Source: a virus. From it: a stretch of 27,840 bases of DNA. Under the pieces are notes generated by a model. That model searched no databases. It worked only from the letters and a program-made list of their open reading frames with translations, and was not told the DNA's origin. The stretch is from positions 1 to 27,840 of the IMG/VR virus record IMGVR_UViG_3300036886_000511; one strand, 5' to 3'. Made by a program: the position numbers and the translations under genes. Below, in pieces: positions 3,049 through 26,709 of the stretch. How positions within the stretch are numbered: the first letter of the stretch is position 1; the number at the start of each line of letters is the position of its first letter.

Positions 3049-3055
3049 CAATCAT

Positions 3056-3145: not shown

Positions 3146-4398
3146 AAATTGAAAACATAAAAATTGAAGAGTTAAAGCCGGCAGATTACAACCCAAGGAA
3201 GTGGTCTAAGGAAGCCATCAGGGATTTAAAAAAGAGTATCCAGGAGTTTGGGTTGGTTGATCCAATTATAGTTAATTCTGCTAAAGCTAGGCATAATATT
3301 GTAATAGGTGGGCATTTCAGGCTCTACATAGCCAAGGAGCTGGGCTTTAAGGAAGTGCCCGTGGTATACCTCAACATACCGGAGATAAAGAAAGAGAAGG
3401 AGTTAAATTTGAGGCTTAACCGCAATCTGGGAGCATGGGATGAAAAGTTGCTGGCCGAGTTTGATATTGACTTGCTTAAAGAGGTGGGGTTTAATAAAAT
3501 TGAGCTGGATAGAATTTATAATATAGAAGAGGACGCCTTCGATGCCGAAGAGGAATACGGAAAGATAAAAAAGCCGACAACTAAGTTAGAAGATTTATTT
3601 CAGTTGGGAGATCACAGATTACTTTGCGGGGATAGCACAAAAGAAAAAGACTATGAAAGATTGCTAAGGGGGGGGGTGGCCGATATGGTTTTCACGGATC
3701 CTCCCTACAATGTGGATTACAAATCGCCCGGAGGATTGGATTATGCTTCTACTAAATTTGGAGGCACTGGCGGAAAGATTTTTAACGATGATAAATCTGA
3801 TGAAGATTGTTTGGAGTTTTATAAGCAGGTTTTATTAAATCTGCATAAATTTACAAAAGATAGCGCCACGATTTACTGGTGGTTTGCAAATAAAAATAAT
3901 GCAATTAATAGAAACGCGTTTGAGCAATCAGGATGGCACATGTCTCAGATTATCATCTGGTTAAAAAATTCAATGGTATTCTCACGCGGTCAGGATTATC
4001 ATAGATGTTATGAGCCATGCATGGTTGGCTGGAAGCAAAAGCAAAAGCATTTTAAAAATAAGACAAAAGAATTGGGATGTCTGAAGGATTGTTTTAATCT
4101 TGATTATGAAACATTCAGCGAGCTTCCGGATGTTTGGTATGAGCACAGGGATATCACTTCTCAATACGTGCATCCAACTCAGAAGCCGGTCCGTCTAGCC
4201 GAAAGAGGATTAAGACGTAATTCAAATCGCGGAGAAATAATTTTAGAAGTTTTTGCTGGATCAGGCAGCACGTTGATTGCCTGCGAGCAGATGGAGCGCA
4301 AGTGTTATGCAATGGAGTTGGATCCGAAGTATTGTGATGTGATAATTAAGAGATTTGAGAAATACACGGGCAAAAAGGCAGTGAAGCTTGATAAGTAA
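3142..4398 (+). CDS. ParB-like nuclease domain / DNA N4- or N6-methyltransferase fusion
   Basis: A 418-aa, two-part enzyme. Residues 1-100 match the ParB/Srx-like N-terminal domain: LKPADYNPR near 11-19, the GLVDPIIV segment near 37, and IGGHFRL at 55-61. Residues 150-415 are an N6_N4 methyltransferase (pfam01555 type) with catalytic DPPYN at 186-190 and the SAM-binding FAGSGST at 371-377. Catalytic motif before SAM motif is the beta-class order. This fusion is widespread in phages and probably methylates the phage DNA, for protection from host restriction or for regulation. DPPY is compatible with adenine or N4-cytosine methylation, so the target base is not determined. No partner restriction enzyme is seen in the window. 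Confidence 0.9.
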   Translation: MKIENIKIEELKPADYNPRKWSKEAIRDLKKSIQEFGLVDPIIVNSAKARHNIVIGGHFRLYIAKELGFKEVPVVYLNIPEIKKEKELNLRLNRNLGAWDEKLLAEFDIDLLKEVGFNKIELDRIYNIEEDAFDAEEEYGKIKKPTTKLEDLFQLGDHRLLCGDSTKEKDYERLLRGGVADMVFTDPPYNVDYKSPGGLDYASTKFGGTGGKIFNDDKSDEDCLEFYKQVLLNLHKFTKDSATIYWWFANKNNAINRNAFEQSGWHMSQIIIWLKNSMVFSRGQDYHRCYEPCMVGWKQKQKHFKNKTKELGCLKDCFNLDYETFSELPDVWYEHRDITSQYVHPTQKPVRLAERGLRRNSNRGEIILEVFAGSGSTLIACEQMERKCYAMELDPKYCDVIIKRFEKYTGKKAVKLDK

Positions 4399-4497: not shown

Positions 4498-4562
4498 GAG
4501 GGGTATAGCTCACCGGTAGAGCGTCCTAGGCAAGGTAGATGGTTCAATTCCATCTCCCCTCA
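4498..4562 (+). tRNA. Degenerate tRNA-like element with shortened anticodon arm
   Basis: Acceptor GAGGGG/CCCCTC (4498-4503, 4556-4561), D arm GCTC-ACCGGTA-GAGC (4508-4522), T arm GATGG-TTCAATT-CCATC (4538-4554) and discriminator A4562 are all well formed. Between the D and T arms only 15 bases remain (4523-4537), where about 23 are needed for an anticodon arm plus variable loop, so no normal anticodon can be assigned. It is probably a decayed tRNA, a tRNA-like structure or a remnant of an attachment site. It lies directly before the small terminase gene. Confidence 0.5.
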
Positions 4563-13023: not shown

Positions 13024-13881
13024 ATGTCAATTGGACAAGGATCGGGAATAACACAAAGAACCTCAGGAACAACCGGAGCGGTTGTTTATAAGGGCACCCT
13101 AGATGCTTCAGGAGGAGTATACCCATCATCTCCTTCAAATGGAGATTATTATATTGTTTCGGTTGCCGGAACAATCAGTGGGACATATTACTCTGTGGGA
13201 GATTGGGCTATTTATAATGGAGCGAGTTGGGAGAGATTAGAATCTGGAGATGATATATTTCATACAGATATTGCAGCAGAAATTTCGGCATTGACTGACA
13301 AAGCAACGCCCGTGGATGCAGATGTGGTTTTGGGAGAAAATTCAGCCGCTTCACCAACGGCTTTCACAAAAATAAAAATAACCTGGGCGCATATAAAAGC
13401 GACTTTAAAAACTTATTTTGACGGAATTTATCAAGCAATAGGAAATTATATCGGCGCAGCAGATGACGGATTATCGGCGCCGGCCAAAGCAGGAAATAAC
13501 GGAAAGGTTTTGGGATTAGTTGCCGGAGCCTTACAATGGGTTTCAGCTGGCGGCGGAAAATTAACTATTGCGAATAAATCGTCAAATTATCCAATTGTTG
13601 TTGGAGACACTGGAAAAGTTTTAGTTGACACTGCGGGTATAACATTTACTTTGCCGGTAATCGCTGCTGGAGACGTAGGGACGGAAGTTATTTTGGTTAA
13701 AAATAATGCTGGGACAACAATGGTGCAGGCAAATACAGGACAGCACATAGCAGACAGCAACTCAGCAGGAACAATTTATGATAGTCAAGCTTCAGAAACT
13801 TATGCAGCCCTCGTTTTAGTCGCGATTTCAACAACCCAGTGGATTATAGTTGGAATGGACGGAACGTGGACGACAACTTAA
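13024..13881 (+). CDS. Fibre-like virion protein, 285 aa
   Basis: A Gly/Ser/Thr/Ala-rich protein. Residues 20-80 carry YKGTLDASGGVYPSSP followed by GDYYIV and YSVGDWAIYNGASWERL, a module frequent in phage tail fibres and other surface appendages. The C-terminal 100 residues (GGKLTIANKSSNYPIVVGDTG onward) resemble a beta-rich fibre tip domain. It ends one base before the start of the DGR target, so the two are probably co-expressed and may form one appendage. Genomic position after the capsid genes leaves open a head or neck fibre. Confidence 0.65.
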   Translation: MSIGQGSGITQRTSGTTGAVVYKGTLDASGGVYPSSPSNGDYYIVSVAGTISGTYYSVGDWAIYNGASWERLESGDDIFHTDIAAEISALTDKATPVDADVVLGENSAASPTAFTKIKITWAHIKATLKTYFDGIYQAIGNYIGAADDGLSAPAKAGNNGKVLGLVAGALQWVSAGGGKLTIANKSSNYPIVVGDTGKVLVDTAGITFTLPVIAAGDVGTEVILVKNNAGTTMVQANTGQHIADSNSAGTIYDSQASETYAALVLVAISTTQWIIVGMDGTWTTT

Positions 13882-13882
13882 T

Positions 13883-14638
13883 ATGTCAATCACAAGAACA
13901 CGTAAAAGTCAGCTTCCAAAAACGGGATGGACTGTTCCATACGATGGAGAGGGTTTTGACGATGGCGGAATTCAAGCTGGTAGTCCGATTTTACCCCGAT
14001 TTATTGATAACGGAGATAATACAATTACGGATCGAGTTACAAATCGTCAATGGATAAAGCAACCAGAATTAATTATTCCTGATGGATTGAGGGCAGATAA
14101 TATAGGGCAACCGAAAGGATTCTGGGTTTCAGGTGGTCCTTATGCAGCGGGAGATATTGTAACTGATTCATCAGATAATTCGGCTTGGATTTGCTTAATT
14201 GCGAATACTCATACTAATGTAACAAGTTTTGCGGCAGAAAGAACGGCTAATCCAACCTACTGGTCCGCCACAGCAAGTATATGGGCAGTAGATGATGGTT
14301 CAGGCAATTTAATTCCATCGCAAGATTTTGTTTGGAGCAATGAAGACACTGGAAAAGGAGCTACTGATTCGTGCAAAGGATTAACAAAATCAGGAAAGAG
14401 CGACTGGTATTTGCCGAATCGTTTTGAATTAGAGAGTATTTTAGATTTAAGTCAAGTCAGACCAACAATTAATTCAACCATTTTTCCGAATACGCGCACG
14501 GATAACTATTATTGGACTTCATCCCCTTACGCCGACGACCCCGGCGGCGTCGCCTGGATTGTCTTCTTCGACGATGGCGGCGTCAGCAGCAACGACCGCG
14601 GCGGCTACGGCTATGTCCGGCCAGTCCGCCAGTATTAA
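13883..14638 (+). CDS. DGR variable (target) protein with DUF1566/Lcl-type C-type-lectin domain
   Basis: A 251-aa protein. Residues 39-60 (DNGDNTITDRVTNRQW) and 175-250 (WYLPNRFELESILDLS, FPNTRTDNYYWTSS, then YVRPVRQ) match the DUF1566/Lcl_C domain, a C-type-lectin-fold scaffold used by many DGR targets. Residues 79-129 (FWVSGGPYAAGDIVT ... WICLIANTHTN ... PTYW) look like an inserted CBM5/12-like carbohydrate-binding module. The last 38 codons before the final Tyr (residues 213-250) are the variable repeat. ATG 13883 is chosen over an earlier in-frame ATG (13850) that lies inside the upstream gene. It probably binds a variable receptor on the host surface. Confidence 0.88.
   Translation: MSITRTRKSQLPKTGWTVPYDGEGFDDGGIQAGSPILPRFIDNGDNTITDRVTNRQWIKQPELIIPDGLRADNIGQPKGFWVSGGPYAAGDIVTDSSDNSAWICLIANTHTNVTSFAAERTANPTYWSATASIWAVDDGSGNLIPSQDFVWSNEDTGKGATDSCKGLTKSGKSDWYLPNRFELESILDLSQVRPTINSTIFPNTRTDNYYWTSSPYADDPGGVAWIVFFDDGGVSSNDRGGYGYVRPVRQY
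14519..14632 (+). repeat. DGR variable repeat (VR)
   Basis: A 114-bp segment pairs base for base with 15116-15229. By my count 19 positions differ and every one is an adenine in the template copy: 15 became G, 4 became T, none C. No difference falls on C, G or T. This is the signature of adenine-specific mutagenic retrohoming. The last 22 bases (CTATGTCCGGCCAGTCCGCC then AG) are identical and probably include the initiation-of-mutagenic-homing region. Similarity ends 3 bases before the gene's stop codon. Confidence 0.95.
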
Positions 14639-14667
14639 TTCGGTGATTTGGTTATTAAACAAATTTT

Positions 14668-15024
14668 ATGGCTCAATACTCCCATTTACCAATATACAAC
14701 AAAGCATATGGTATCCTGCGAGAATTCTATGTCCGTGTGCCGAAATTTGGGAAACAATACAAATATTTTCTGGGAAACGATCTGATAAAATATGCCGTTG
14801 AAATAATAAAGATTATTATTAAAGCAAACAGCGAGCGGGATAAAAAGAGGCGCACAGAATTGATAGAATATTTATGTTTAACAATTGAGATGTTGATTAC
14901 CCAATTACGCATAGCCAACGAATTACGGCAGTTAGGCGGGCAAAAATCATATCTGTATTTATCTGAGTTGGTTGTGGATTTGTCAAAACAGGCTGAGGGC
15001 TGGAAGAAATACACCCCGGAATGA
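14668..15024 (+). CDS. avd: DGR accessory variability determinant (Avd), four-helix-bundle protein
   Basis: A 118-aa, mostly helical, strongly basic protein. After an aromatic/basic N-terminus (HLPIYNKAYGILREF, RVPKFGKQYKYFLG) it has the regular helices expected of the Avd/S23-like four-helix-bundle family. Avd forms a pentameric barrel, binds the reverse transcriptase and TR RNA, and is required for cDNA synthesis in BPP-1. It lies between the target gene and the TR, as in the Bordetella phage DGR. Its TGA stop is part of a hairpin (15023-15043) that opens the TR RNA region. Confidence 0.88.
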   Translation: MAQYSHLPIYNKAYGILREFYVRVPKFGKQYKYFLGNDLIKYAVEIIKIIIKANSERDKKRRTELIEYLCLTIEMLITQLRIANELRQLGGQKSYLYLSELVVDLSKQAEGWKKYTPE

Positions 15025-15253
15025 TTAACCCGCGTGGTTAGTCAGCGAGGGTTTTGGAAATACAAACCCCTGCCCTTGAAAGAGGATAGAAGCACGAAGT
15101 CAGGGGTTATCTAAATCATCCCCTTACGCCGACGACCCCGACAGCGACGCCTGGATTGTCAACTTCAACAATGGCAACGTCAACAACAACAACCGCAACA
15201 ACAACAACTATGTCCGGCCAGTCCGCCAGCACTTCCTATTCAGCCCAGCCTGT
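15023..15253 (+). ncRNA. DGR template RNA region with structured 5' leader
   Basis: This non-coding stretch carries the TR and its flanks. At its 5' end GATTAACC/GGTTAGTC (15023-15030, 15036-15043) forms an 8-bp hairpin with one G-T pair. Further in, AACCCCTG/CAGGGGTT (15065-15072, 15101-15108) form a perfect 8-bp stem enclosing 28 bases. GGGTTT/AAACCC (15049-15054, 15064-15069) would form a competing hairpin. In BPP-1 the sequences flanking TR are needed for priming and RT/Avd binding, and these structures are good candidates for that role. The exact RNA ends are unknown. Confidence 0.7.
15116..15229 (+). repeat. DGR template repeat (TR)
   Basis: This is the invariant donor copy of the 114-bp repeat. 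Read in the frame of the target gene it encodes 38 codons including 12 Asn codons (11 AAC, 1 AAT), clustered as four AAC, CGC, four AAC. Adenine mutagenesis of AAC cannot create a stop codon, and it can give many residues. The TR ends 33 bases before the RT start at 15263. It contains about 35 adenines, 19 of them changed in the present VR. Confidence 0.95.
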
Positions 15254-15262
15254 TTGACAGAT

Positions 15263-16081
15263 ATGCAAGAAGTATTCATATTAGAGAAATTATGGAAAGC
15301 ATATCTTGATTGTAAAAAGAGAAAGAAAAACACAATCAACGCGCTTAAGTTTGAAATCAACCGAGAGAAAAATCTGATTGCTCTTTTAAAAGAATTAAAA
15401 TCAAGAGAATATAAAATATCTAAACACATTTGTTTTATTGTTAAAGATCCGACTGTTAGAGAAATCTTTGCCGCAGATTTTCGGGACCGAGTTGTGCATC
15501 ATCTTTTATATAATGAAGTTAAGGGTATATTTGAGAAAGACTTCATTAAAAACTCCTTTGCAAACAGGATCGGCAAGGGCACGCACAAAGGAGTTGAAAA
15601 ATTAAAAGAATATTTAAAAGACCAGAGCATCACTCATTTTCTAAAACTGGATATAAAAAGTTTTTTCTGCTCGATAAATAAAGATATTTTATACGGGATA
15701 GTTTCTGAAAAAATTAATGGCGCAGACAAAAGTTTTGGATGGAAAAAGGATATTTTATGGTTGTGTGGTAAGATAATATATAACGACCCGACAAAGAATT
15801 ATCTTTTTAAGGGCAATTGGAGATTAAAGAATTTAATCCCGAAAGACAAATCGTTGTTTTATTCAAAAGGGAAAGGATTGCCAATTGGAAACCTGACATC
15901 ACAATTTTTCGCCAATGCATATTTAGATCAGTTAGATAAATTCATTTACGGACTTGGCCACAAATATTATATCAGGTATGTTGACGATTTTATTATTTTG
16001 GGTGATAAAAACATTTATGAGGACACAGATAAAGCTGAGCGAGAAAAAAGTAAGGTTTCAGCCGGTAGAAATGGGCATTGA
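15263..16081 (+). CDS. DGR reverse transcriptase, N-terminal and catalytic part (frame broken)
   Basis: A 272-aa frame covers RT fingers and palm. It shows FLKLDIKSFF (first catalytic Asp, about residue 130), GLPIGNLTSQ with the DGR-specific IGxxxSQ motif (208-214, where group II intron RTs have QGxxxSP), and the catalytic YVDD (239-242). Shortly after YVDD it runs into DTDKAEREKSKVSAGRNGH and stops at TGA 16081. The expected thumb region (GIDFLGY onward) continues in the +1 frame. ATG 15263 is preferred over an in-frame TTG at 15254. The enzyme would copy TR RNA into adenine-mutated cDNA with Avd. A deletion of 3n+2 bases near 16015-16040 is the simplest cause. Confidence 0.85.
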   Translation: MQEVFILEKLWKAYLDCKKRKKNTINALKFEINREKNLIALLKELKSREYKISKHICFIVKDPTVREIFAADFRDRVVHHLLYNEVKGIFEKDFIKNSFANRIGKGTHKGVEKLKEYLKDQSITHFLKLDIKSFFCSINKDILYGIVSEKINGADKSFGWKKDILWLCGKIIYNDPTKNYLFKGNWRLKNLIPKDKSLFYSKGKGLPIGNLTSQFFANAYLDQLDKFIYGLGHKYYIRYVDDFIILGDKNIYEDTDKAEREKSKVSAGRNGH

Positions 16082-16337
16082 TTTTCTGGGATATTTTATA
16101 AAACCCAGCCACATATTAGTCCGGAGAAAGGTTGTGGGTAGATTCAAAGATAAAATGTATAGATTGGGCCCGGTGAATGTAAAAGAGTTAATGGCAACAG
16201 GCAATTCATATTTTGGGCATTTCATTCACGGCGATTCATTCAAATTAAGAAAAACAATTTACGATAAATATTTTAAAGGAAAATTCAAATTTAAAAAACA
16301 ATATAAATCAATAAAACTTCTACCACCGAAAAAATAA
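16017..16337 (+). CDS. DGR reverse transcriptase, C-terminal (thumb) part in the +1 frame
   Basis: This frame carries IKLSEKKVRFQPVEMGIDFLGYFIKP and ILVRRKVV, the conserved end of DGR reverse transcriptases, and ends in a Lys-rich tail (LLPPKK). It is offset +1 from the catalytic part. The distance from YVDD to the lysine pair is roughly ten residues shorter than I expect for the family, which points to a small deletion. An ATG at 16017 could start a separate 106-aa chain overlapping the upstream part by 65 bases, so a two-chain enzyme is possible. Otherwise this is the 3' half of a broken gene. Confidence 0.75.
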   Translation: MRTQIKLSEKKVRFQPVEMGIDFLGYFIKPSHILVRRKVVGRFKDKMYRLGPVNVKELMATGNSYFGHFIHGDSFKLRKTIYDKYFKGKFKFKKQYKSIKLLPPKK

Positions 16338-16346
16338 GATGGTAGA
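16319..16346 (+). repeat. 7-bp inverted repeat at the end of the RT gene
   Basis: TCTACCA (16319-16325) and TGGTAGA (16340-16346) are perfectly complementary, with the RT stop codon in the 14-base loop. There is no T-run, so it is weak as a terminator. It could mark the 3' end of the DGR transcript or be chance. Confidence 0.25.
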
Positions 16347-16354
16347 CAATAAAA

Positions 16355-16663
16355 ATGGCAGTTCAAATTAATTTCACGAGCAAGGATGGCAACAGCGGAA
16401 ACTATGTAAATTTTGATCCGATGCTTCAAAATAAAACAACACTAATATTGAGAATGAAATATTGGAAAGATTTAGCGACCAGGAAAGCAGACGGATCAAT
16501 CCCAATGAATGATGAATTGACTGGCGGTCCCAATGATAGAATTGTAGGATTTAAATGCCTTTATAAAGGAGTGTATGATTTAGCTTCTGCAAAGAACATC
16601 TTTGATCAGGGATACGACTATTTAAAAACATTGCCCGAATTTAACGGGGCCGTGGATTGTTAA
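16355..16663 (+). CDS. Hypothetical protein, 102 aa
   Basis: A small protein beginning MAVQINFTSKDGNSGNYVNF, with a charged central section (RMKYWKDLATRKADG) and ending in Cys. I do not recognise a family. It opens the block of neck and tail genes after the DGR and ends 3 bases before the next ATG, so a structural or assembly role is likely but unproven. Confidence 0.55.
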   Translation: MAVQINFTSKDGNSGNYVNFDPMLQNKTTLILRMKYWKDLATRKADGSIPMNDELTGGPNDRIVGFKCLYKGVYDLASAKNIFDQGYDYLKTLPEFNGAVDC

Positions 16664-16666
16664 AAT

Positions 16667-17368
16667 ATGGCAAACTATGTCTCACATGAAGAAGTTTTAG
16701 AGCAGGCAGGATTTCAGTTTAAGGAGCGGGGAGAAATTCCTACGGGTTTGGTTAATAGTTCCAATAAAGATTATTATGTGGCGCACGCCCCCTTTGTTGA
16801 CAGAAATTATGATGATGTTGTAGATACAACAGATGTGATTGTTTATGTTAATGGGGTGGCGGTATCTGTTGCTTCAATTGTTGCGGCAGAAGGAAAAGTA
16901 ACTTTGAGCGCAGCGCCGACAACAGGAGCAGTTGTGACGATAGATTATGACTGGTCTAATTTGGATCAAGCGGTTGTGGCCACATATCACACGCAGGCGC
17001 ACGATCAGATTCAAAGCACACTGAATGTGGTTTATGTCATTCCTTTGCAGTCTACGGGTGGCAACTACGTGCCTGATATGGTCAAATTGCTTGAAAAACG
17101 GCTCACCGCGGGTTTTTTACTGGATAAGGAGTATTCGGTGGGAGGAGATGAAACAAAGGACACCCGGGGGCAATTATGGATTAAGTGGGCTACGCAAATG
17201 CTTAAGGATATTTTGGACAGGAAAGTTCAACTAATGGATGCCTCATTTATTGTTTTAACGCAAAGAAATTCGGGAATTGTAAAGGCTTGGCCGGATAATT
17301 CAACGGCAACACAGGATGAGCAAGACAGCGGAGGGGATGTGCATGTGAGAATGAAACAAAATTTTTAA
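16667..17368 (+). CDS. Putative virion/connector protein, 233 aa
   Basis: Three parts can be seen. The first is an N-terminal helical/loop region. The second is a small beta domain at about 38-92 (YYVAHAPFVDRN, VIVYVNGVAVSVASI, GKVTLSAAPTTGAVVTIDYDW) that resembles the short beta modules repeated in phage virion proteins. The third is a helical C-terminal part. It lies between capsid and tail-completion genes, where head-tail connector proteins are encoded. I cannot name the family; connector is inference from position. Confidence 0.5.
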   Translation: MANYVSHEEVLEQAGFQFKERGEIPTGLVNSSNKDYYVAHAPFVDRNYDDVVDTTDVIVYVNGVAVSVASIVAAEGKVTLSAAPTTGAVVTIDYDWSNLDQAVVATYHTQAHDQIQSTLNVVYVIPLQSTGGNYVPDMVKLLEKRLTAGFLLDKEYSVGGDETKDTRGQLWIKWATQMLKDILDRKVQLMDASFIVLTQRNSGIVKAWPDNSTATQDEQDSGGDVHVRMKQNF

Positions 17369-17395
17369 AATTATATCGCTACGCTACGTAAACTT

Positions 17396-17863
17396 ATGGC
17401 AACAACACAGGGAAGCTCAACAAATCAAGGAGGGGTTACACTTAATTTTACGGTTGAAGGAGATGTCCAGCTTTCAAGAAGGCTTAGGATAGTTTCTGAT
17501 AAAGTAAAAGATTTTAGCAATGAATTTAAAAAGACCGGAGACTTTTTGACAAGTTATTCAAATCAGGATGTTTTCAGTTCAAAGGGAGCAGTGCTGGGAG
17601 GGACCTGGCCACCGAGAAAGAATGAAGAAAATTATACGTGGCCGATATTAGAAAAGACCGGAAAAATGAGAGCTGGATTTAAATCAGAGCCGTCTGCAAT
17701 GCAAGTGATTGTTTATAACGTGATGGATTATTTTAAATATCACCAGTCAAAACTGCCAAGGACAAGATTGCCACGCAGAATAATGTTTAAATTAAACGAC
17801 TATTTAAAAACGAGAATTGTTAAAATATTTCACGATGCAATTTATCAAGCTTCACAACAATGA
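17396..17863 (+). CDS. Tail completion / virion morphogenesis protein (Mu gpG-like)
   Basis: A 155-aa protein. GGTWPPRKNEENYTWPILEKTGKMRAGF followed by a YFKYHQ segment and LPRTRLPRRIMFKLND matches the pattern of the phage virion morphogenesis family (a W-P-L...TG...HQ...PxR layout). Its members complete the tail or attach tail to head. Here the W-P and HQ motifs are clear but the spacing is not checked by alignment. Its TGA overlaps the next ATG (17860-17863), so the two are coupled. Confidence 0.65.
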   Translation: MATTQGSSTNQGGVTLNFTVEGDVQLSRRLRIVSDKVKDFSNEFKKTGDFLTSYSNQDVFSSKGAVLGGTWPPRKNEENYTWPILEKTGKMRAGFKSEPSAMQVIVYNVMDYFKYHQSKLPRTRLPRRIMFKLNDYLKTRIVKIFHDAIYQASQQ

Positions 17864-18363
17864 CAGCTCCATATAAAGATCCAATAATAGAGGCCTTCAT
17901 AACACTAATTAAATCTTACAGAAAAGATATAAAAATTTATTACAACGGAATTGCAGGAAAGATACCGGCATCACTGGCGCCAGCGATAATGATTGGAATT
18001 GAAAAAGATGAAGTGAAAGAAGAGGACCCGGCGAGAGATGAGCATTTTGTCAGCATGGTGTTGGTATATATTGCTGATATGAAGCAGAATTTTGAAGATA
18101 CGCCGACAATCATCGCCGGATTGAATAATGTAATGCAGACATTGATCGGGAGAGATGCAAATTATTCTTTGCTAAAAAATAGTATTTTAAATATAATAAG
18201 GTCAAACCCAGTTATTAATTCATCAATAGGTTTAAGGGCTGACGTGGGTGCGGTAACCGTCGCAACGCCAACCGAAGTGGCTGCCAATAGACTGCAAGGA
18301 TATTGGAGCGCCGAGGGGACGATTCGATTTACTGCGCATCTATATCAGACAAGAAATCCATGA
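17860..18363 (+). CDS. Putative tail terminator protein, 167 aa
   Basis: An alpha/beta protein with an N-terminal helix (DPIIEAFITLIKSY), then strands in PAIMIGIEKDEV and FVSMVLVYIADM, and a C-terminal strand GTIRFTAHLYQ. The size, fold pattern and place between the tail-completion gene and the tail tube gene suit a tail terminator (gpU-like), which caps the tube and joins it to the head. No decisive motif is visible. It overlaps its neighbours by 4 bases on each side. Confidence 0.5.
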   Translation: MTAPYKDPIIEAFITLIKSYRKDIKIYYNGIAGKIPASLAPAIMIGIEKDEVKEEDPARDEHFVSMVLVYIADMKQNFEDTPTIIAGLNNVMQTLIGRDANYSLLKNSILNIIRSNPVINSSIGLRADVGAVTVATPTEVAANRLQGYWSAEGTIRFTAHLYQTRNP

Positions 18364-18545
18364 AAAACAAAAATGAAAACGCATCATCTGCGGAAGATAA
18401 AGAATCAAAAACCTCGAGCGTCGAGGTAGGGGATGAAAAGGTCGTAGAAACTACTTTTGCTTTCACACAATATAACATAGCTATAAAAGCTAAAAGTCGA
18501 GAGGAAGCAGAAGAGAAATTAAAAGAAATATTAAATAAAAAATAA
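18360..18545 (+). CDS. Small charged protein, 61 aa
   Basis: Starts at an ATGA overlap with the upstream stop (MKNKNENASSAEDKESK). The N-terminal 30 residues are polar and low complexity. The rest has a strand (ETTFAFTQYNIAIKAKS) and a helix ending LKEILNKK. An earlier in-frame ATG at 18303 lies inside the upstream gene and is less likely. It precedes the tail tube gene; function unknown. Confidence 0.5.
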   Translation: MKNKNENASSAEDKESKTSSVEVGDEKVVETTFAFTQYNIAIKAKSREEAEEKLKEILNKK

Positions 18546-18551
18546 AAAAAC

Positions 18552-19541
18552 ATGCCAACACCTTTTATAGGAGCCCAAGAAGAATGCGGTATAGCCAAAG
18601 AAGGGACAAGAGGAACTGCGACTACGCCCGCTTATTGGATTCCAAAAATAGATTTTTCCGTTGAAAACAAACCAACATATCAAAGCTTGGATGATAGTTT
18701 CGGAAGAATTGAAGACTCTGACGACCAAAAATTAGTGATGACTGGAGCTGAAGGAAATATTGTAGGAAGAATTGGAGTTAGTTCTTTCGGGCTTTTATTG
18801 CTCGCCTTATTTGGGACAGATACGCCGGCACCCAATGGCGCATCGTATGATCACGTATTTACTGTTGCAAACAATAATCAGCACCCGTCTTTGACCATTG
18901 AAATGAAAAATCCTCAGCAACAACTCGCATTTACTCTGGCAATGTTAGACAGCTTGGAAATCAGATGTGAAGCCGGAAAGGTTGTAGAATTTACTGGATC
19001 GTTCAAATCAAAAGCAGGAGTCGCAGCCACGCATACGCCTTCTTATATCACTACAGACTACGAATTTTTAATGAAGCATTTGTCATTAAAAATAGCAGCG
19101 CTTTCAGCCGGAGGATATAACGCAGCGGGAATTACATCGGCTACAGCATTGGCGGTTAAGTCATTCACAATGAAGCCGGTAAAAAATATTGAAAGGAATG
19201 ATACTTTTGGTTCATTGGATCCAAGCGATATCAACAACAAGAGTTTTGCTTTTGAAGGAACGATTGTATTGCAATATGCGGATACGGTATTCAAAGCGCT
19301 GGTTGACGCAGGCACGCCTTATTGCATGGCCTTTGACGCAAAGGATACTGATGATATTTTGTCCGGCGCGCTAAATCCTGAATTAAAGATTTTGTTTAAC
19401 AAAGTTTATTTCACATCATTTGCAAAATCAACTAGCAGAAACGATATAGTGACGCAGACAATTACATTCAAAGCAGTTTACAACCTTGTTGATTCAAAAA
19501 TGATACAGGCAACATTGACAAATAATGTAGCCACTTACTAA
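18552..19541 (+). CDS. Major tail tube protein
   Basis: A 329-aa beta-rich protein. The opening (GAQEECGIAKEGTRGTATTPAYWIP), the GNIVGRIGVSSFGLLLLALFG segment and the long beta region rich in Thr/Ser/Phe are typical of siphophage tail tube proteins. Its place directly before the tail assembly chaperone and tape measure supports this. It polymerises into hexameric rings that form the tail. No sheath gene is adjacent, consistent with a non-contractile tail. Confidence 0.75.
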   Translation: MPTPFIGAQEECGIAKEGTRGTATTPAYWIPKIDFSVENKPTYQSLDDSFGRIEDSDDQKLVMTGAEGNIVGRIGVSSFGLLLLALFGTDTPAPNGASYDHVFTVANNNQHPSLTIEMKNPQQQLAFTLAMLDSLEIRCEAGKVVEFTGSFKSKAGVAATHTPSYITTDYEFLMKHLSLKIAALSAGGYNAAGITSATALAVKSFTMKPVKNIERNDTFGSLDPSDINNKSFAFEGTIVLQYADTVFKALVDAGTPYCMAFDAKDTDDILSGALNPELKILFNKVYFTSFAKSTSRNDIVTQTITFKAVYNLVDSKMIQATLTNNVATY

Positions 19542-19551
19542 ACTCACACTA

Positions 19552-19583
19552 CTGGATGAGGGTAGTGCACCGCCTTCATCCAG
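19552..19583 (+). promoter_or_regulatory. 12-bp hairpin after the tail tube gene
   Basis: CTGGATGAGGGT (19552-19563) pairs with GCCTTCATCCAG (19572-19583) over 12 positions, two of them G-T pairs, with loop AGTGCACC. There is no T-run afterwards, so it is more likely an mRNA 3'-end stabiliser or processing barrier for the abundant tube mRNA than an intrinsic terminator. Confidence 0.5.
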
Positions 19584-19600
19584 CCGACCAAAAATTAAAA

Positions 19601-19647
19601 TATCTTTATGCCACTGGCGGCTAATAAACGGTGGTGGCAAAAAGATA
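19601..19647 (+). promoter_or_regulatory. 13-bp stem-loop just before the tail chaperone start
   Basis: TATCTTT (19601-19607) pairs with AAAGATA (19641-19647) and TGCCAC (19609-19614) with GTGGCA (19634-19639), separated by an A-A mismatch. The enclosed loop is 19 bases. The stem ends 6 bases before ATG 19654, so it could modulate chaperone translation relative to the highly expressed tube gene upstream. Confidence 0.5.
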
Positions 19648-19653
19648 AAAGAA

Positions 19654-20016
19654 ATGGAAAATCAAAAAGATACAATCACAATTGAGACTCCGGCAGATAA
19701 ACACAGCGTTATTTTAAATGCTTATATTACCGGCCGGGAGAAGAGAAATTTAAATAATATTTTTCAGGCCTGGCAAGTTGGATTGGGAGACAAGGGAATG
19801 ATATCTGATAAAAAAGATACAAAGGGAATGATTGAAAACGCAGAAAATGAAGCAATTAAAACCGTCGTTGTTTCAGTAGATGGAATATCTGAAAATGTTT
19901 TGGATAAAGTTTTAGACATGAAATCCGATGATTATGTTTTCGTAATCAAAAAGATTAATGAAATCACATCGGGATCAGGTTTTTTAGCAGAAGCCCAGAC
20001 GGAGATAGCGAAGTAG
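19654..20016 (+). CDS. Tail assembly chaperone, short form (G-like)
   Basis: A 120-aa protein. TIETPADKHSVILNAYITGREKRNL followed by helices and VDGISENVLDKVLDMKSDDYVFVIKKINEI is the usual layout of siphophage tail assembly chaperones. These coat the tape measure before tube polymerisation. The short form ends at TAG 20014-20016 in the zero frame. The sequence T TTT TTA at 19980-19986, in the correct phase, allows a -1 shift to produce a longer form. The position between tube and tape measure genes is that of lambda G/T. Confidence 0.78.
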   Translation: MENQKDTITIETPADKHSVILNAYITGREKRNLNNIFQAWQVGLGDKGMISDKKDTKGMIENAENEAIKTVVVSVDGISENVLDKVLDMKSDDYVFVIKKINEITSGSGFLAEAQTEIAK

Positions 20017-20183
20017 ATCTCTCAAAAAACTCCTACCGCGCGGGCAATATGGATGAGCTGATGATTATGGTTTACATTTGCCAAACAACTGGATGGGATT
20101 TTTATACATATATGAATCAGCCGGAATGGTTTTTGGACTTGTTTAAATGGAAATTAGAATTTGATTCAAAAAAACAAAAATAA
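19654..20183 (+). CDS. Tail assembly chaperone, long form by programmed -1 frameshift (GT-like)
   Basis: Decoding 111 codons in frame to TTA 19984-19986 and then slipping back one base reads on from AGC at 19986 through 65 more codons to TAA 20181-20183. The product is about 176 aa. The extension contains SYRAGNMDELMIMVY and TTGWDFYTY, typical of the T-type part of tail chaperones. UUUUUUA is a classical slippery heptamer. A 6-bp stem GGAGAT/ATCTCT (20001-20006, 20017-20022) lies 14 bases downstream. The -1 frame is open only from 19962 and has no better start than an internal ATG at 20049. Confidence 0.8.
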
Positions 20184-20184
20184 C

Positions 20185-21612
20185 ATGGCATTATTTGGAT
20201 CATCAGACACATCTATAAATATCGTAGTTTCAGCGCTGGATCAGGCCAGCACCGTTTTAAGTGGATTAGAAAGTAAGTTGAGCTCAATGAAAAAGGCTTT
20301 TACTGCTATGCAACAGATAGGCACGATTGGATTTGCGGCAACCGCGGGAGCATCTATACTGGCAGTAAAAGATTTTGCTGAGACCGGAAAACAAACAGAA
20401 ATTTTGGCTCAAAAAACAGGATTTAGCGCAAGCGCTATTTCGTCTTTAGGTTTGGCTTTAACTGAATCCGGAGTGAGTTCTGATCAGATGGCCACTGGAA
20501 TGAAGATGTTGTCTAAGCAGATATATGCAGCTGAGGGAGGAACTAAAAGTGCGATTACCAATTTACAAGGAGTTGGGATTAGTTTAAAAGATATTAAAAC
20601 TTTAAAACCTGAAGAGTTATTTTTTAAGGTAGCCGGCAAGGTGGCTGATTTAAAAGATAATACAGCCAAATTGGCCGAAGCTACAAAATTATTCGGCAGA
20701 TCTGGAACGGATCTGTTGCCCTTTTTTGATTTAGGTTCGGCTGGCATAGCAAAATTGAGAGATGAGAATACAAGACTGGGAGCTACGTTTGACGAGGATA
20801 TGATAAAAAAAGCCCAGGCAGCAGAGTTTAATTTATCTGAATTACAGACAGCTCAGCAAGGTCTTACTATTGCTTTTGGAGAATCATTGGCTCCGGCATT
20901 GGCAGATTTGGCCGTTAAAATTACTGGGGTAATAGTTGCGGTAAGCGGATTCATGAAGCAACATCCTCAACTGGTTTCTAATATAGTTTTAATTGCAGGT
21001 TCAATATTTGGACTTTTGGCAGTAGGCGGAACGATGGGAAAATGGCTTTTGGATATAATAAGGATAGGACAAATTTTAATACCTGTTCTACAAGGAATAA
21101 ATCTTGCCTTTTTAGCAAATCCTGTGACATGGGTTGTTTTAGGTTTGGTTGCGATTGGAGTTGCTTTTTACGAGCTGTATCAGCATTCTGAAACTTTTAG
21201 AAAAGCAGTAAATGAATTATGGGATTTAGTAAAAATAGCGGCAGGCGAGATAGCTAAACTTTTTGTCAACGCTTTTAATGACGTAAAGAATGCGATTAAA
21301 GGAGCATCTGATATGCTGACAAATATTGGTAATATTGCTGGTAATGTTGGAAAATCGATTGGGGGGGCTATTTCAACTGTTACGGGTGGCACTGTGAAGA
21401 TATTGGGAGCTAAGGCCAGCGGAGGGTGGATTGATCAGACAGGGCCTTATTTAATGCACGCAGGAGAGTATGTAATACCAAGTCAGGCAGTTGGCGCAGG
21501 AATTGGCGGGCAGAATATTGTGGTTAATATCACCGGCACTGTAGATGAAAGAATGGCGCAAAGAGTGGGAGATTTAATTGTTGGAAAATTAAAAAGAAAT
21601 AGAAAAATCTAA
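20185..21612 (+). CDS. Tape measure protein
   Basis: A 475-aa protein from ATG 20185 (MALFGSSDTSINIVVSALDQAS). An in-frame TTG 24 bases upstream is less likely. It has a helical N-terminus with a TMP-like DQASTVLSGLESKLSSMKKAF repeat and a Gly/Ala-rich segment. The region at about 260-335 holds several hydrophobic helices (LVSNIVLIAGSIFGLLAVG, VTWVVLGLVAIGVAFYELY). The C-terminal end (GGWIDQTGPYLMHAGEYVIP) is characteristic of tape measure proteins. It sets tail length; at roughly 0.15 nm per residue this would be near 70 nm. Its TAA overlaps the next start (TAATG). Confidence 0.85.
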   Translation: MALFGSSDTSINIVVSALDQASTVLSGLESKLSSMKKAFTAMQQIGTIGFAATAGASILAVKDFAETGKQTEILAQKTGFSASAISSLGLALTESGVSSDQMATGMKMLSKQIYAAEGGTKSAITNLQGVGISLKDIKTLKPEELFFKVAGKVADLKDNTAKLAEATKLFGRSGTDLLPFFDLGSAGIAKLRDENTRLGATFDEDMIKKAQAAEFNLSELQTAQQGLTIAFGESLAPALADLAVKITGVIVAVSGFMKQHPQLVSNIVLIAGSIFGLLAVGGTMGKWLLDIIRIGQILIPVLQGINLAFLANPVTWVVLGLVAIGVAFYELYQHSETFRKAVNELWDLVKIAAGEIAKLFVNAFNDVKNAIKGASDMLTNIGNIAGNVGKSIGGAISTVTGGTVKILGAKASGGWIDQTGPYLMHAGEYVIPSQAVGAGIGGQNIVVNITGTVDERMAQRVGDLIVGKLKRNRKI

Positions 21613-22862
21613 TGAATATTTCAATCCTAATCAGACCAGCCGGATCGGTAACATTCACAGAAAGAAAAGCGCTGATTGATTGGAGTTCGGTTGATAAAGA
21701 GGATGTTTTGACTTCTCAGACAGACACTTTAGCTTTTACAATGAAAATACCGGCAACTGCAGCTTATGGTCCCACTGTTGGAGATGAAGTTAAGATGTAT
21801 GATGGAGCCACGCAAATTTTTGGCGGATTTATAACTTATATTAATCAGAGGATAGATGGCGCAGGATTATTTTATTATGATTGCAGCTGCAAAGACTACA
21901 CGCACTTATTGGACGGAGTTTTAATTAAAAGCACATACAATACGCAATCAATCAATGCAATCATTGCCGATATAATCAACCAGGTAAATGTTTTTACAAC
22001 TCCTTTTGGAGTGACATACACAACGGTTAATGTCAACTGCCCTTTAGTGATTGATCACATTCAGTTTAATTACGAGCAGGCAACAAAATGTTTGCAACAG
22101 CTGGCAGAAACATATATTTATCACTGGTATGTTGATTATGCAAAAGACATTCATTTCTTTGCGAATGCAGCGGAAGTAGCGCCGTTTAATTTAACAGACA
22201 ACAGCGGAAATTATATTTTTAATTCTTTAGAAATTAGCCATGATATTACTCAGTTGAGAAATTATGTTTTTGTCCGGGGAGGTAAATATAAAACGACCGC
22301 GAGCAGAACTGAGACATATGTAGCCACCGCTGGCCAGACTTCACAGCCTTTGGCAAACGATTATGCCACGACTCCGATAGTAAAAATAAACGGAGTGACG
22401 CAATCGGTGGGAATTGATGGCACAGACAGCCCTTTAACTTTTCAGGTTTTGTGGAATGCTAATTTACAATCTATAACATTTTCAAGCGCTTTATCTTCCG
22501 GGCAGACGATTACAATTGCAGCTCAGCCACAATTTCCTGTTTTGGCTTTACAAAAAGATAATCCTTCTATTGCCAGCTATGGAACATTTCAATATAAAAT
22601 TATTGATAAAAGAATTAATACTGTGCCACATGCAAGAGATCGCGCTCAAGCTGAAATTCAAAATTGGGGAGATCCTTTGATTGAGGGAACTTTTAAAACA
22701 TACAGATCGGGTTTAAGGTCGGGACAATTAATTTCAATCCAGTCAACAATTAGAGGAATAAATATTGCAATTTTTTATGTGGTTCAAAAGGTCGTTTTAA
22801 AAATGTTTTCTCAGAGTGACGGAATCTGGCAAGTAGATTTCGTTTCTGTATTTGGAATATGA
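21612..22862 (+). CDS. Tail tip / baseplate hub-type protein, 416 aa
   Basis: It begins NISILIRPAGSVTFTERKALIDW, with GDEVKMYDGATQIFGGFITYIN near residue 60. Such beta-barrel openings are typical of distal tail and hub proteins (gpD/gp44-like folds). The segment QFNYEQATKCLQQLAETYIYHWYVDYAKDIHFF is a common hub-protein feature. A beta insertion around 235-310 includes TYVATAGQTSQPLANDYATTP, which resembles the small beta module in the 16667 gene product. It follows the tape measure, as tail-tip genes do. I infer a baseplate component; no enzymatic motif is visible. Confidence 0.68.
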   Translation: MNISILIRPAGSVTFTERKALIDWSSVDKEDVLTSQTDTLAFTMKIPATAAYGPTVGDEVKMYDGATQIFGGFITYINQRIDGAGLFYYDCSCKDYTHLLDGVLIKSTYNTQSINAIIADIINQVNVFTTPFGVTYTTVNVNCPLVIDHIQFNYEQATKCLQQLAETYIYHWYVDYAKDIHFFANAAEVAPFNLTDNSGNYIFNSLEISHDITQLRNYVFVRGGKYKTTASRTETYVATAGQTSQPLANDYATTPIVKINGVTQSVGIDGTDSPLTFQVLWNANLQSITFSSALSSGQTITIAAQPQFPVLALQKDNPSIASYGTFQYKIIDKRINTVPHARDRAQAEIQNWGDPLIEGTFKTYRSGLRSGQLISIQSTIRGINIAIFYVVQKVVLKMFSQSDGIWQVDFVSVFGI

Positions 22863-23074
22863 AAATAGGAATTATAGAATTTTTACAGGGGATTGTAGAT
22901 CAACCGGATAAAGATATTGAAATAAGCCAAGATGAAATCATTGACTTGCTTTGGGCTGAATCAGATGATTTTACTGTTCAGGAAAGCACCGTCAGTTATA
23001 GTTTTGTTACGGGGCCTTGGTATACTTACAATGGCACGCCAACTGGTTATGTTGGTTTTTGTCAGGCTTCTTAA
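22859..23074 (+). CDS. Small acidic tail-region protein, 71 aa
   Basis: Begins within an ATGA overlap (22859-22862). The first 45 residues are acidic (DQPDKDIEISQDEIIDLLWAES). The C-terminus is a Tyr/Gly/Ser-rich strand region (SYSFVTGPWYTYNGTPTGYVGF). Not recognised. Tight coupling to the hub gene suggests a tail-tip accessory. Confidence 0.5.
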   Translation: MKIGIIEFLQGIVDQPDKDIEISQDEIIDLLWAESDDFTVQESTVSYSFVTGPWYTYNGTPTGYVGFCQAS

Positions 23075-23086
23075 AAGTGATATAAT
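23059..23086 (+). promoter_or_regulatory. Candidate sigma-70 promoter for the tail fibre genes
   Basis: TTGTCA (23059-23064) lies 16 bases upstream of TATAAT (23081-23086), which is preceded by TG one base away (an extended -10). Transcription would start about 7 bases after the -10, at or next to ATG 23093, which would make the mRNA leaderless. The -35 lies within the end of the preceding gene. This is motif-based only; AT-rich DNA gives chance matches. Confidence 0.4.
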
Positions 23087-23092
23087 AAAAAA

Positions 23093-23617
23093 ATGACAAA
23101 AGATAATTTTCCAATATTTAAAGGACGCGCAGAAGTTGTAATCAGAGATGTGCCTTTTTGGGCAATTCCTTTTCAGCGTTTTGGTTTGTTTAAAAAAGCT
23201 GGTAAAATAGTAAGTAGAAAGATTTATAAAAATGTTTTTGTCAATGCGGGAAAAGCATCTCTGCTTAATGGTTTGGGAGGAGTAAATTCAGGATATATCA
23301 CATGGCTTGCAGTTGGAAATGGAAATACTGTTGGCACACCTCCGGCAGCAACAGATACTCAGTTATTGGCCGAAATTTATAGAAATGAAATTGGCGTGGC
23401 CAACGTTGTAGGTTTAACTTTAACAATTTCAACATTCTTTCCTACAGCAGCCGGTGGAGGACCCCCTGCGGGAGCATATACGGAGCTTGGATTTTTTGGA
23501 GATGCCACGGCTTCTGTAACGCCAAATAGCGGGACGATGTTTACACATCTAGCAATAACAGAGACAATTGCATCGGGTCAATCGGTGACGATTAACTACG
23601 ATATAATTGCTTTATAA
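23093..23617 (+). CDS. Putative tail appendage protein, 174 aa
   Basis: A Gly/Ala/Thr-rich beta protein. After a basic N-terminus (residues 1-45) it shows NAGKASLLNGLGGVNSGYITWLAVGNGNTVGTPP and later AYTELGFFGDATASVTPNSGTMF. The pattern of N-A-G-K, W-L-A-V-G-x-G and a terminal S-V-T-I-N-Y strand recurs in phage tail-fibre and tail-tip proteins of unknown exact role. The ATG sits 7 bases after a TATAAT, so this may be a leaderless start. It probably contributes to the host-facing tip. Confidence 0.6.
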   Translation: MTKDNFPIFKGRAEVVIRDVPFWAIPFQRFGLFKKAGKIVSRKIYKNVFVNAGKASLLNGLGGVNSGYITWLAVGNGNTVGTPPAATDTQLLAEIYRNEIGVANVVGLTLTISTFFPTAAGGGPPAGAYTELGFFGDATASVTPNSGTMFTHLAITETIASGQSVTINYDIIAL

Positions 23618-23621
23618 AAAT

Positions 23622-24323
23622 ATGGCACAATGGATAACAAACGAGCAAATAACCGCAGATAAATTAAATAATAGGAGAGGATTCCCATCAAGGGCAAGAG
23701 CGCATTTAACTTTACAGCTTCAAATTCCAGCGGGAAACAATGAGATGCCTCTTGACTTTGATACTTTAGATTTTGATAGCAATTCGGAATTTGATTGCCC
23801 AGCACAAAGAACTGGAACATCAAGGGCTGGGTCTGGTTCAGGACATTTGATAGACAATGTAGCAAATCAATTCGTTCCAGCGGATGTGGGCAGGTGGGTT
23901 TATAATTCAAACGATGGCACATACACACAGATTACAGCATATAATAGTGCGAGTGATGTTTCGGTTAATTATTTTGTTGGAAGCGGAAAAGTATATAGAA
24001 TTTTCGGGACAAAATATACAGCAAAAGTTGCAGGTTATTATCAAGTTAATGCGATGGGAAAAGTTGACCAATTACAAGCCAATGGACTTGAAAGATTCGT
24101 GCCTAAAAAAAATGGAGTTGGTCTTGCTCAGATCGCTGCTTATGTATCTTCTGCTGGTGCGAATATTTATTCCAATGCTCCCCCAGTGATGTATTCAGAT
24201 ATAGTCCATTTGGCGATAGGAGATTATCTAGAATTCTTTTTGGCACAGGATAGCTCTGGAGTGCATTATACAGACAATGGTGAAGCGCCATATTTTTCAA
24301 TTCAAATGGTTTCTGAGGATTAA
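23622..24323 (+). CDS. Tail fibre protein with C1q-like C-terminal domain
   Basis: A 233-aa protein from ATG 23622 (MAQWITNEQITADKLNNR); an in-frame TTG 15 bases earlier lies within the preceding gene. The QITADKLN segment is a frequent fibre N-terminal motif. Residues 130-233 (YTAKVAGYYQVNA, VGLAQIAAYVSS, GDYLEFFLAQDSSG, PYFSIQMV) resemble a C1q/TNF-like jelly roll, used by many fibres for receptor binding and trimerisation. A Gly/Ser-rich segment (68-120) lies between. It is probably a non-variable adhesin complementing the DGR protein. Confidence 0.65.
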   Translation: MAQWITNEQITADKLNNRRGFPSRARAHLTLQLQIPAGNNEMPLDFDTLDFDSNSEFDCPAQRTGTSRAGSGSGHLIDNVANQFVPADVGRWVYNSNDGTYTQITAYNSASDVSVNYFVGSGKVYRIFGTKYTAKVAGYYQVNAMGKVDQLQANGLERFVPKKNGVGLAQIAAYVSSAGANIYSNAPPVMYSDIVHLAIGDYLEFFLAQDSSGVHYTDNGEAPYFSIQMVSED

Positions 24324-24329
24324 AAAAAT

Positions 24330-25799
24330 ATGAAGAATCAAAAGGTTAGATATTTTCAACCCCTAAAGTTTGCTCAGCCCGGAGCAGACGATTTAAAGAC
24401 AAAGTCTGTATTGCAGATTGATTACGGTTTGTTTGCTCACGTAGGGGCTACCCTGGCGCGCAAATTCGGAAAGGCATATTACTATACTCCTTGGCAGGAT
24501 GACTTCCCTAGCTCGGCTAAACAGCGCCTGGGAACGGATATGGATGGATTAATTAGAGTTCAAAATTTTTGGGATTACATTGACAAAGTTGATTTAATAG
24601 TTTTCTTTGATACATATCAGGCAGATCTCATAGATTATTTAAGAAGGAAGGGATATAGAGTTTGGGGAGCCGGCCGGGCAGAGAATATGGAAGCTCATCG
24701 GTGGGAGATGAGAGTAATGCAAAAAGAAGTGGGGTTGCCTACGCAAGATACTTTAAAAATAAGGAGCGTGGCAGATTTAGAGTTGTATTTTAAAGGCATC
24801 CGGAGAACGGTGTTTGATTTAGTAGGACAGGTTGATGAGTCAGCCGAGCAGGAGATATTTGACAAAATAAAAGAAAAGTATGAAAACTTTTCAGAGAATT
24901 ATTTTATTACAGAGGCCAGTGATAATAAATTTAAAATGATGGATGAGTGGATTTTGGGAGCTAAGAATAAATATATCAAAGCAAATATGAGGGGAGATAT
25001 TGAAAGCTTTTTTGCGCCAGACTATGATGGTTCGCTTTCAAAATTAAATGCGTTGGCCGATAGCTTTGGACATAGACAAGATGCGAGCGAGGTTGAGTTT
25101 GTTGTAGAAAATCAGGTTGAAGGAATTGAGCCGGGAGGAGACCATATACAAATCAACGGAGAGTTTTTAAGCCCTACATTTTACGGATATGAAATGAAAG
25201 GCCAGGGAGATTTAATTAAGGCATGCGCATATGACGAGTTGCCAAAACCTATAATTGAACTTAACGATAAGCTTTCAGCCATAATAAAAAAATATAATCC
25301 GACAGCTTCTTTTTTCTCAACAGAATTTATGATGGGCAAAGACGAGAAGCCTTATTTGATTGATCCGACTGTGCGCAATCCGGCGCCCTGTGGGACCGCT
25401 ATAATGTCTGAGATGATTGAAAACTTGGCCGAAGTTATCTGGTATGGAGCTGCCGGCATTAAAGTATCGCCAAAAATTAACGGTGTTTACGGGGCCGGTG
25501 TTGCCATAGAATCAGAATGGGCTGAAGAGCATGAGCTTGAAGTTGAAGTGGACCCGTCGATTCAGCAGTTTGTTAAATTTAGAAAGGCATATAAAAAGAA
25601 TGGCAAATATTATTCTGTGCCCGGCTTCTCTTCCATCTGTTCAGTTATTGGTTTTGGAGATACAATAAAAGAGGCAGTTGATTTAGTTAAAATGAGAATG
25701 GAAAAAGTAAAAGGATATGGCCTGCAGAAATCTACGTCGGGACTTGATGCAGTTCAGGAGGAAGTTAAAAAAGGTGAATCATACGGAATTAATTTTTAA
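24330..25799 (+). CDS. ATP-grasp enzyme (PurD/carboxylate-amine ligase-like)
   Basis: A 489-aa protein. The N-terminal part (to about residue 110) looks like a pre-ATP-grasp alpha/beta domain (DLIVFFDTYQADLIDYLRRKGYRVWGAGRAENME). The central part fits ATP-grasp: AHRWEMRVMQKEVGLPTQD as in PurD-like ligases, VEFVVENQVEG, and the metal-binding FSTEFMMGKDEKPYLIDPTVRNPAP in place of the usual E...N.R set. The C-terminal GAGVAIES and FGDTIKEAVDLVKMRME resemble the PurD end domain. ATP-grasp enzymes join carboxylates to amines, amides or peptides through acyl phosphates. The substrate here is unknown. Its place between tail fibres and lysis genes hints at modification of virion or cell-wall material. 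Confidence 0.75.
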   Translation: MKNQKVRYFQPLKFAQPGADDLKTKSVLQIDYGLFAHVGATLARKFGKAYYYTPWQDDFPSSAKQRLGTDMDGLIRVQNFWDYIDKVDLIVFFDTYQADLIDYLRRKGYRVWGAGRAENMEAHRWEMRVMQKEVGLPTQDTLKIRSVADLELYFKGIRRTVFDLVGQVDESAEQEIFDKIKEKYENFSENYFITEASDNKFKMMDEWILGAKNKYIKANMRGDIESFFAPDYDGSLSKLNALADSFGHRQDASEVEFVVENQVEGIEPGGDHIQINGEFLSPTFYGYEMKGQGDLIKACAYDELPKPIIELNDKLSAIIKKYNPTASFFSTEFMMGKDEKPYLIDPTVRNPAPCGTAIMSEMIENLAEVIWYGAAGIKVSPKINGVYGAGVAIESEWAEEHELEVEVDPSIQQFVKFRKAYKKNGKYYSVPGFSSICSVIGFGDTIKEAVDLVKMRMEKVKGYGLQKSTSGLDAVQEEVKKGESYGINF

Positions 25800-25804
25800 C
25801 TACA

Positions 25805-26053
25805 ATGGCAAAAATAGATGAACTCTCAAGAGTAATAGGAGACCTAGAAGCAACTGTGAGGGAGGGTTTTAAGTCTGTTAATAAAAGATTGGACGCTTTG
25901 CCATGCGCAGGTCAAGCTAAAAAATTAGAAATTGTAGAACAGAGAGTAAGCAAGGTGGAGGGAAAAATAACAATTATTTCAACGGTGGCAGGCTTTGTCG
26001 GTTCGATTATATTTGCGGCGATTGGATGGTTTTTACAAAGGATTAAATTTTGA
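25805..26053 (+). CDS. Holin-like / hemolysin XhlA-type protein
   Basis: An 82-aa protein with an N-terminal amphipathic coiled coil (about residues 1-55, DELSRVIGDLEATVREGFKS) and one C-terminal membrane helix at 56-78 (IISTVAGFVGSIIFAAIGWF) followed by a short basic end (LQRIKF). This is the layout of XhlA-type holin partners, which help endolysins reach the wall. It lies upstream of the endolysin, separated by a cassette of three small genes. Assignment rests on topology and context. Confidence 0.65.
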   Translation: MAKIDELSRVIGDLEATVREGFKSVNKRLDALPCAGQAKKLEIVEQRVSKVEGKITIISTVAGFVGSIIFAAIGWFLQRIKF

Positions 26054-26076
26054 GTTCTTTTACAAGGGAGGTTTCG

Positions 26077-26271
26077 ATGTTAGCTTACTGCGCAAAGAAA
26101 GACCGGTTTGTTAAAATCGGCAAAGCGATTCACTACTGTGTAAACCAGAGGCATTGCGAAAGCATACACCTCATAACAAGGAAAGGAAACCATCATGCAA
26201 ACATTCACGGGCAGATTCCGGGGAACAATCACCGAGCGGGCAATCGTAGAAATGGTGACAGATTCTCTTAA
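26077..26271 (+). CDS. Small Cys/His-rich protein with strong SD, 64 aa
   Basis: ATG 26077 is preceded by AAGGGAGG at a normal distance, unlike most genes here. Residues 4-40 (CAKKDRFVKIGKAIHYCVNQRHC) contain three cysteines and histidines that might bind zinc, though it is not a standard ribbon. The C-terminal 26 residues are Asn/His/Arg-rich and overlap the next gene by 77 bases in another frame, so this end may be a by-product. Not recognised. Confidence 0.4.
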   Translation: MLAYCAKKDRFVKIGKAIHYCVNQRHCESIHLITRKGNHHANIHGQIPGNNHRAGNRRNGDRFS

Positions 26272-26401: not shown

Positions 26402-26402
26402 A

Positions 26403-26680: not shown

Positions 26681-26709
26681 AAAATCAATTATTATTAAAA
26701 TATATCTAT

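Follow-up and report, generated by a model that had tools for sequence, protein, structure and literature searches.

The window analysed here, a 27,840-nt phage genome fragment (positions 1 to 27,840 of IMGVR_UViG_3300036886_000511), carries a diversity-generating retroelement (DGR) of a known type, in which a target gene (13883-14638), the accessory gene avd (14668-15024), a template repeat (TR, 15116-15229) and a reverse transcriptase (RT) gene starting at 15263 follow one another on the plus strand. The best overall explanation, to which we assign a probability of about 0.85, is that this DGR of a tailed, siphovirus-type phage recently rewrote the variable repeat of its target (VR1), and that the window copy afterwards lost 35 bp within its RT gene, which is still intact in one or more other genomes of this phage. 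Phage DGRs in general are well known, and this one is ordinary in its parts and mechanism. Three details are notable: the host-type lineage of a cassette found in phages, an RT that was broken only recently and of which an intact sister copy exists, and a second target beyond the structural module.

Target 1 and Its Genomic Context

The first target gene encodes a 251-aa protein with a C-terminal Lcl_C / C-type-lectin domain (PF07603, E 4e-23) that contains VR1. In an AlphaFold model based on 25 sequences, this domain reached a pLDDT of about 90 and above, and a Foldseek search with the model retrieved the C-terminal domain of Legionella Lcl (8q4e, E 3e-5) as the top match, followed by C-type lectins. 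Judged by this predicted structure, the variable repeat sits in a C-type-lectin-fold target. The adjacent gene encodes the accessory protein Avd (PF22296, E 3e-12; PHROG 3206, "Avd protein of DGR", E 2e-17). The first-pass annotation had described a DGR carried by a phage, with a C-type-lectin target of the Lcl/DUF1566 type, and the PF07603, PF22296, RVT_1 and PHROG matches bore this out.

Upstream of the cassette are genes for the terminase, portal, protease, scaffold and a Phage_cap_E capsid protein, and downstream of it are those for Gp36-like and neck proteins, the tail tube and the tape measure; the gene directly 3' of the cassette (16355-16663, plus strand) is shared with another phage, G001 (58% identity). 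The position of its gene between the capsid and head-tail connector genes makes target 1 a probable surface protein of the virion, and by this gene neighbourhood it may be displayed on the head or the neck. Its homologues in two related contigs, L192 and L193, are likewise located downstream of capsid-region genes, and Hoc-like capsid decoration proteins have previously been proposed as DGR targets (PMC5883640). The gene just before target 1 (13024-13881) is conserved in the same place in L192 and L193 (about 50%) and has a beta-rich C-terminus; it is possibly a head or neck fibre, and its poor structure prediction (pLDDT 44) was not used. Elsewhere in the window, positions 3142-4398 encode a ParB-like domain fused to a DNA methyltransferase (PHROG 498, E 5e-125), and the tRNA tools disagree, ARAGORN calling only a tRNA-Met at 2976-3049 and Rfam only a tRNA at 4498-4562.

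Template and Variable Repeats

VR1 occupies the 3' end of target 1 (14519-14632, plus strand) and, like the TR with which it was compared, is 114 bp long. The two repeats differ at 19 positions, every one of them an adenine in the TR, exactly as first annotated. The changes comprise 15 A>G, 4 A>T and 0 A>C; given the 35 adenines of the TR, the chance that 19 of 19 randomly placed mismatches fall on adenines is (35/114)^19, or roughly 2e-10. All 79 non-adenine TR sites are identical in VR1, which implies that homing was recent relative to ordinary mutation. The earlier count of 14 changed codons out of 15 adenine-rich ones stands as regards the 14 changed codons; however, the total of 15 holds only within 14543-14609, and unchanged adenine-containing codons outside this interval had been ignored. 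A peculiar A>G bias at VR1 was considered and rejected, since nine other loci also lack A>C changes and the spectrum pooled across loci is mixed (47% G, 35% T, 17% C). No further repeat copy that might represent a second VR was found within the window. Pairs resembling TR/VR were detected in 133 of the 169 scanned sequences, nearly all of them RT-bearing relatives.

Three other contigs entering the VR of the target-1 family stop at bases 16, 16 and 76. The contigs L178 (3300037091_000089) and L179 (3300036884_000099), which match the window at 99.99-100% identity along 13.5 and 11.1 kb, respectively, both end at window position 14534, that is, VR base 16, directly before TR adenine 17. L192, from a more distant phage whose target is 53% identical in the best search segment, stops inside its own VR at base 76, before a TR adenine assigned by homology with the window TR. 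Contigs are expected to break off where alleles diverge; these ends are therefore indirect evidence of VR variation in the respective populations. The TR-VR repeat itself was rejected as the main cause of such ends, the 5' stretch shared by the two repeats being 25 bp long and L192 stopping at base 76. Together, the adenine-only TR/VR pattern and the contigs that end inside the VR lend indirect support to the earlier claim of recent activity, understood as past mutagenic homing. The contig ends suggest, likewise indirectly, that the element may be active in the population; present-day activity of the window copy in cis is unlikely.

Deletion in the Reverse Transcriptase Gene

The RT gene begins with an ATG at 15263 and its first part (15263-16081, plus strand) encodes the RVT_1 motifs up to YVDD (RVT_1 E 2e-11, match covering 15263-16078; PHROG 1423, E 4e-72), shortly after which a frameshift stop at 16081 closes the frame. 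The C-terminal part, containing the FLGYF motif and the end of the protein, is encoded out of frame at 16035-16337 on the same strand (PHROG 1423 positions 350-450, E 2e-14). PHROG 1423 aligns the two pieces as consecutive stretches of one protein, of whose estimated 369 residues about 257 are still native in frame. The best solved relative is the chain named "Reverse transcriptase" in 8ub7 (E 2e-32). The cassette can thus not be regarded as complete with an RT extending to 16337, as first annotated.

Another IMG/VR contig (3300037089_000175, represented by loci L003 and L007) matches the window at 100% identity in two stretches, 15907-16033 and 16030-23337, and has 35 additional bases at the RT junction; its RT frame is open through FLGYF. 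Since this contig is otherwise identical and has an intact RT gene, we conclude that the window copy, in which the gene is not intact, carries a 35-bp deletion, the scar of which is a TAAA micro-homology at 16030-16033 (plus strand). With this loss, the window copy very probably lacks RT function in cis and therefore could not mutate further on its own, as far as can be inferred from sequence. The absence of these 35 bases may reflect a minority allele or an error. In a separate comparison with L007, 208 differences cluster in window positions 23338-27840, which cover the tail-fibre and lysis region, after 7.3 kb without any; this divergence may reflect mosaicism or rapidly changing receptor-binding genes.

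Several alternatives to a recent loss of the RT were weighed. It is conceivable, although rather unlikely, that the real genome has an intact RT, the frameshift being an assembly or sequencing error and the DGR complete and active. The contig that is identical over 7.4 kb and carries an intact RT would agree with such an error, as would the freshly homed look of the TR/VR pair; however, the junction is a clean 35-bp deletion at TAAA rather than a homopolymer error, and k-mer assembly would presumably need supporting reads for it. Nor would a k-mer assembler be misled by a micro-homology as short as 4 bp. We consider it slightly less probable that the element is decaying, with the target lectin retained, the mutating machinery being lost and the VR frozen. 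Beyond the broken RT of the window, the relative L193 points in this direction, its target homologue being intact, its Avd cut and its TR and RT not found. In L193:2068-3424, the target is whole and Avd breaks off about 37 residues in, where an HNH-like reading frame was recognized by eye, for which Pfam gave no match; neither a TR nor an RT was found in the stretch examined, and the locus is a putative DGR remnant. General decay is nevertheless difficult to reconcile with the identity of TR and VR at 79 of 79 non-adenine sites, according to which any loss must be very recent, with the intact RT of the otherwise identical contig, and with the contigs that end inside the VR.

Improbable, finally, is a truncated RT that still works, either through slippage at the A6 run (16044-16049) or through trans-complementation by intact phages in co-infected cells. 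The A6 run does lie near the junction and an intact allele of the same phage exists, but a single -1 ribosomal slip enters the wrong frame, and the fused product would still be short of about 11 residues after the YVDD hairpin.

Second Target Outside the Window

The L178 record (G386) reaches upstream of the window, where it holds the gene for a 216-aa protein that combines a CxxC pattern at its N-terminus with an Lcl_C domain (E 3e-27). This second VR target (L187:4333-4980 in G386) ends about 335 bp upstream of window base 1. The 110-bp VR at its 3' end differs from the window TR by 18 adenine changes and one other base. The gene adjoins an AAA_24 ATPase gene, and a replication protein O homologue is encoded in the same region. 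The plan is the same in the phage G001, which also has two targets, the second of them starting with a similar CxxC N-terminus. Phage DGRs with two targets are already known (PMC10743442); a description of a second DGR target in a replication region was not found in the limited set of literature searched.

Leader Element and Comparison with BPP-1

Just 5' of the TR, a paired leader was identified at 15065-15108 (plus strand), with the arms AACCCCTG (15065-15072) and CAGGGGTT (15101-15108). The 8-bp stem occurs in the same place in four of four clade members, with arms that are changed but matching, as against 2.5% of shuffles; the arms are AACCTCTG/CAGAGGTT in G001 and AGTTTCCG/CGGAAACT in L097/L098, and one stem sequence is common to two of the four members. 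This leader stem with compensatory changes 5' of the TR was noted in the window, L002, L097, L098 and L099. No Rfam family, RF03018 and RF03022 included, matched the window leader region.

Most of the relatives have a short TR-RT gap: across 68 phage loci, the median distance from the TR end to the RT homology is 16 nt. A large clade of phage DGRs has a structured RNA 5' of the TR, with compensatory changes in 12 of 16 predicted pairs, that matches the Rfam RT-15 leader RNA (RF03018). The window element shares with this clade the short TR-RT gap and the structured leader; however, the RTs belong to separate clades and the window leader is unmatched by RF03018. The window leader may be the counterpart of RF03018. 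It was rejected as a new kind of RNA, given that the phage-clade version is already RF03018 and the BPP-1 spacer RF03022, and that only the version of the window clade is unmatched.

The cassette had been likened to that of Bordetella phage BPP-1 (mtd-avd-TR-brt). This likeness extends to the gene order, whereas the RT lineage, the TR-RT spacing and the RNA element differ. The RTs are about 33% identical over the compared part, the TR-RT gap is 144 nt in BPP-1 and 33 nt in the window, and the avd-TR gap is 0 and 91 nt, respectively. The BPP-1 spacer matches Rfam RF03022 (Phage_DGR), while the corresponding window region has no Rfam family; the target is Mtd in BPP-1 and an Lcl_C protein in the window; the BPP-1 cassette is located at the end of the tail module and that of the window in the head module; and the RT of the window is broken. 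The BPP-1 spacer recruits the RT-Avd complex and primes cDNA synthesis (PMC12875486), and by analogy the leader likely does here what the spacer does there. A hairpin after the VR is required in BPP-1 (PMC3240598). Directly after VR1, no GC-rich hairpin or cruciform was seen, only a weak 5-bp A/T inverted repeat read in the sequence (ATTTG/CAAAT, 14646-14664, plus strand), and the fold of 14600-14700 has a z of -1.9.

Lineage, Relatives and Host

Early RT searches from two sequences gave poor patterns, and a diverse alignment was used instead. The nearest RTs in the genome collection are 50-55% identical and all come from Patescibacteria, while the best match among GenBank phages is about 42%, with no close RT among them. 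When 93 RTs were placed in a tree, those of the window and G001 clustered with four Patescibacteria RTs (L097, L098, L099 and L100; SH-aLRT 99) and apart from the large phage clade. The RTs with which that of the window groups are accompanied by TR/VR pairs of their own. The four Patescibacteria DGRs resemble that of the window in RT clade, with RT identities of 51-55%, in a short TR-RT gap with a paired leader, in Avd (57% in the L098 genome) and in their Lcl_C targets, present in both of the two loci whose targets were seen. They differ in location: theirs are chromosomal, flanked by housekeeping genes, whereas that of the window lies in a phage genome beside head genes. An Avd homologue occurs in about 20% of the sampled genomes of the L098 phylum (75 of 380). 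In a large survey, the Patescibacteria-restricted DGR clade (DGR clade 2) was almost entirely cellular (PMC8144416).

The IMG/VR phage G001 (3300047202_000009) is similar to the window in Avd (83%), in RT (78%) and in the near-identical 3' part of the TR. In contrast to the window, its RT is intact as far as readable (it spans the record ends), and its terminase, portal and capsid have no detectable similarity to those of the window. Because Avd, RT and the next gene are conserved and the terminase, portal and capsid are not, the cassette was either transferred from one phage to another or preserved as the remainder of the genome diverged. Searches with the window structural genes in the L098 phylum gave no host signal, the portal being matched in 1 of 380 genomes (E 6e-5) and the capsid in none of 380. 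The host of the phage may be a member of the Patescibacteria.

Implications

By analogy with BPP-1, Avd and RT in the intact state would reverse-transcribe the TR RNA, making errors at its adenines. The resulting cDNA would replace the VR at the 3' end of both targets, target 1 and the one just outside the window, thereby altering the ligand-binding surface of their C-type-lectin domains. As a tentative and rather speculative extension, a DGR of Patescibacteria lineage, with a leader RNA 5' of the TR that has no Rfam family, may have been acquired by phages and passed between unrelated ones, where it would diversify two lectin-domain proteins together: target 1 of the head module, probably on the capsid or neck, and a CxxC (zinc-ribbon-like) target of the replication region without an evident virion role. 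Given this second target, which does not look structural, one may ask what else phages diversify. The window with its fresh VR and broken RT, the sister contig with an intact RT and the relative with a remnant Avd provide a naturally occurring set of states in which the switching off of DGRs can be studied. A Patescibacteria-type cassette, in which the RT, Avd and lectin target are host-like, occurs in two or more unrelated phages, which makes phage-mediated spread of these elements testable.
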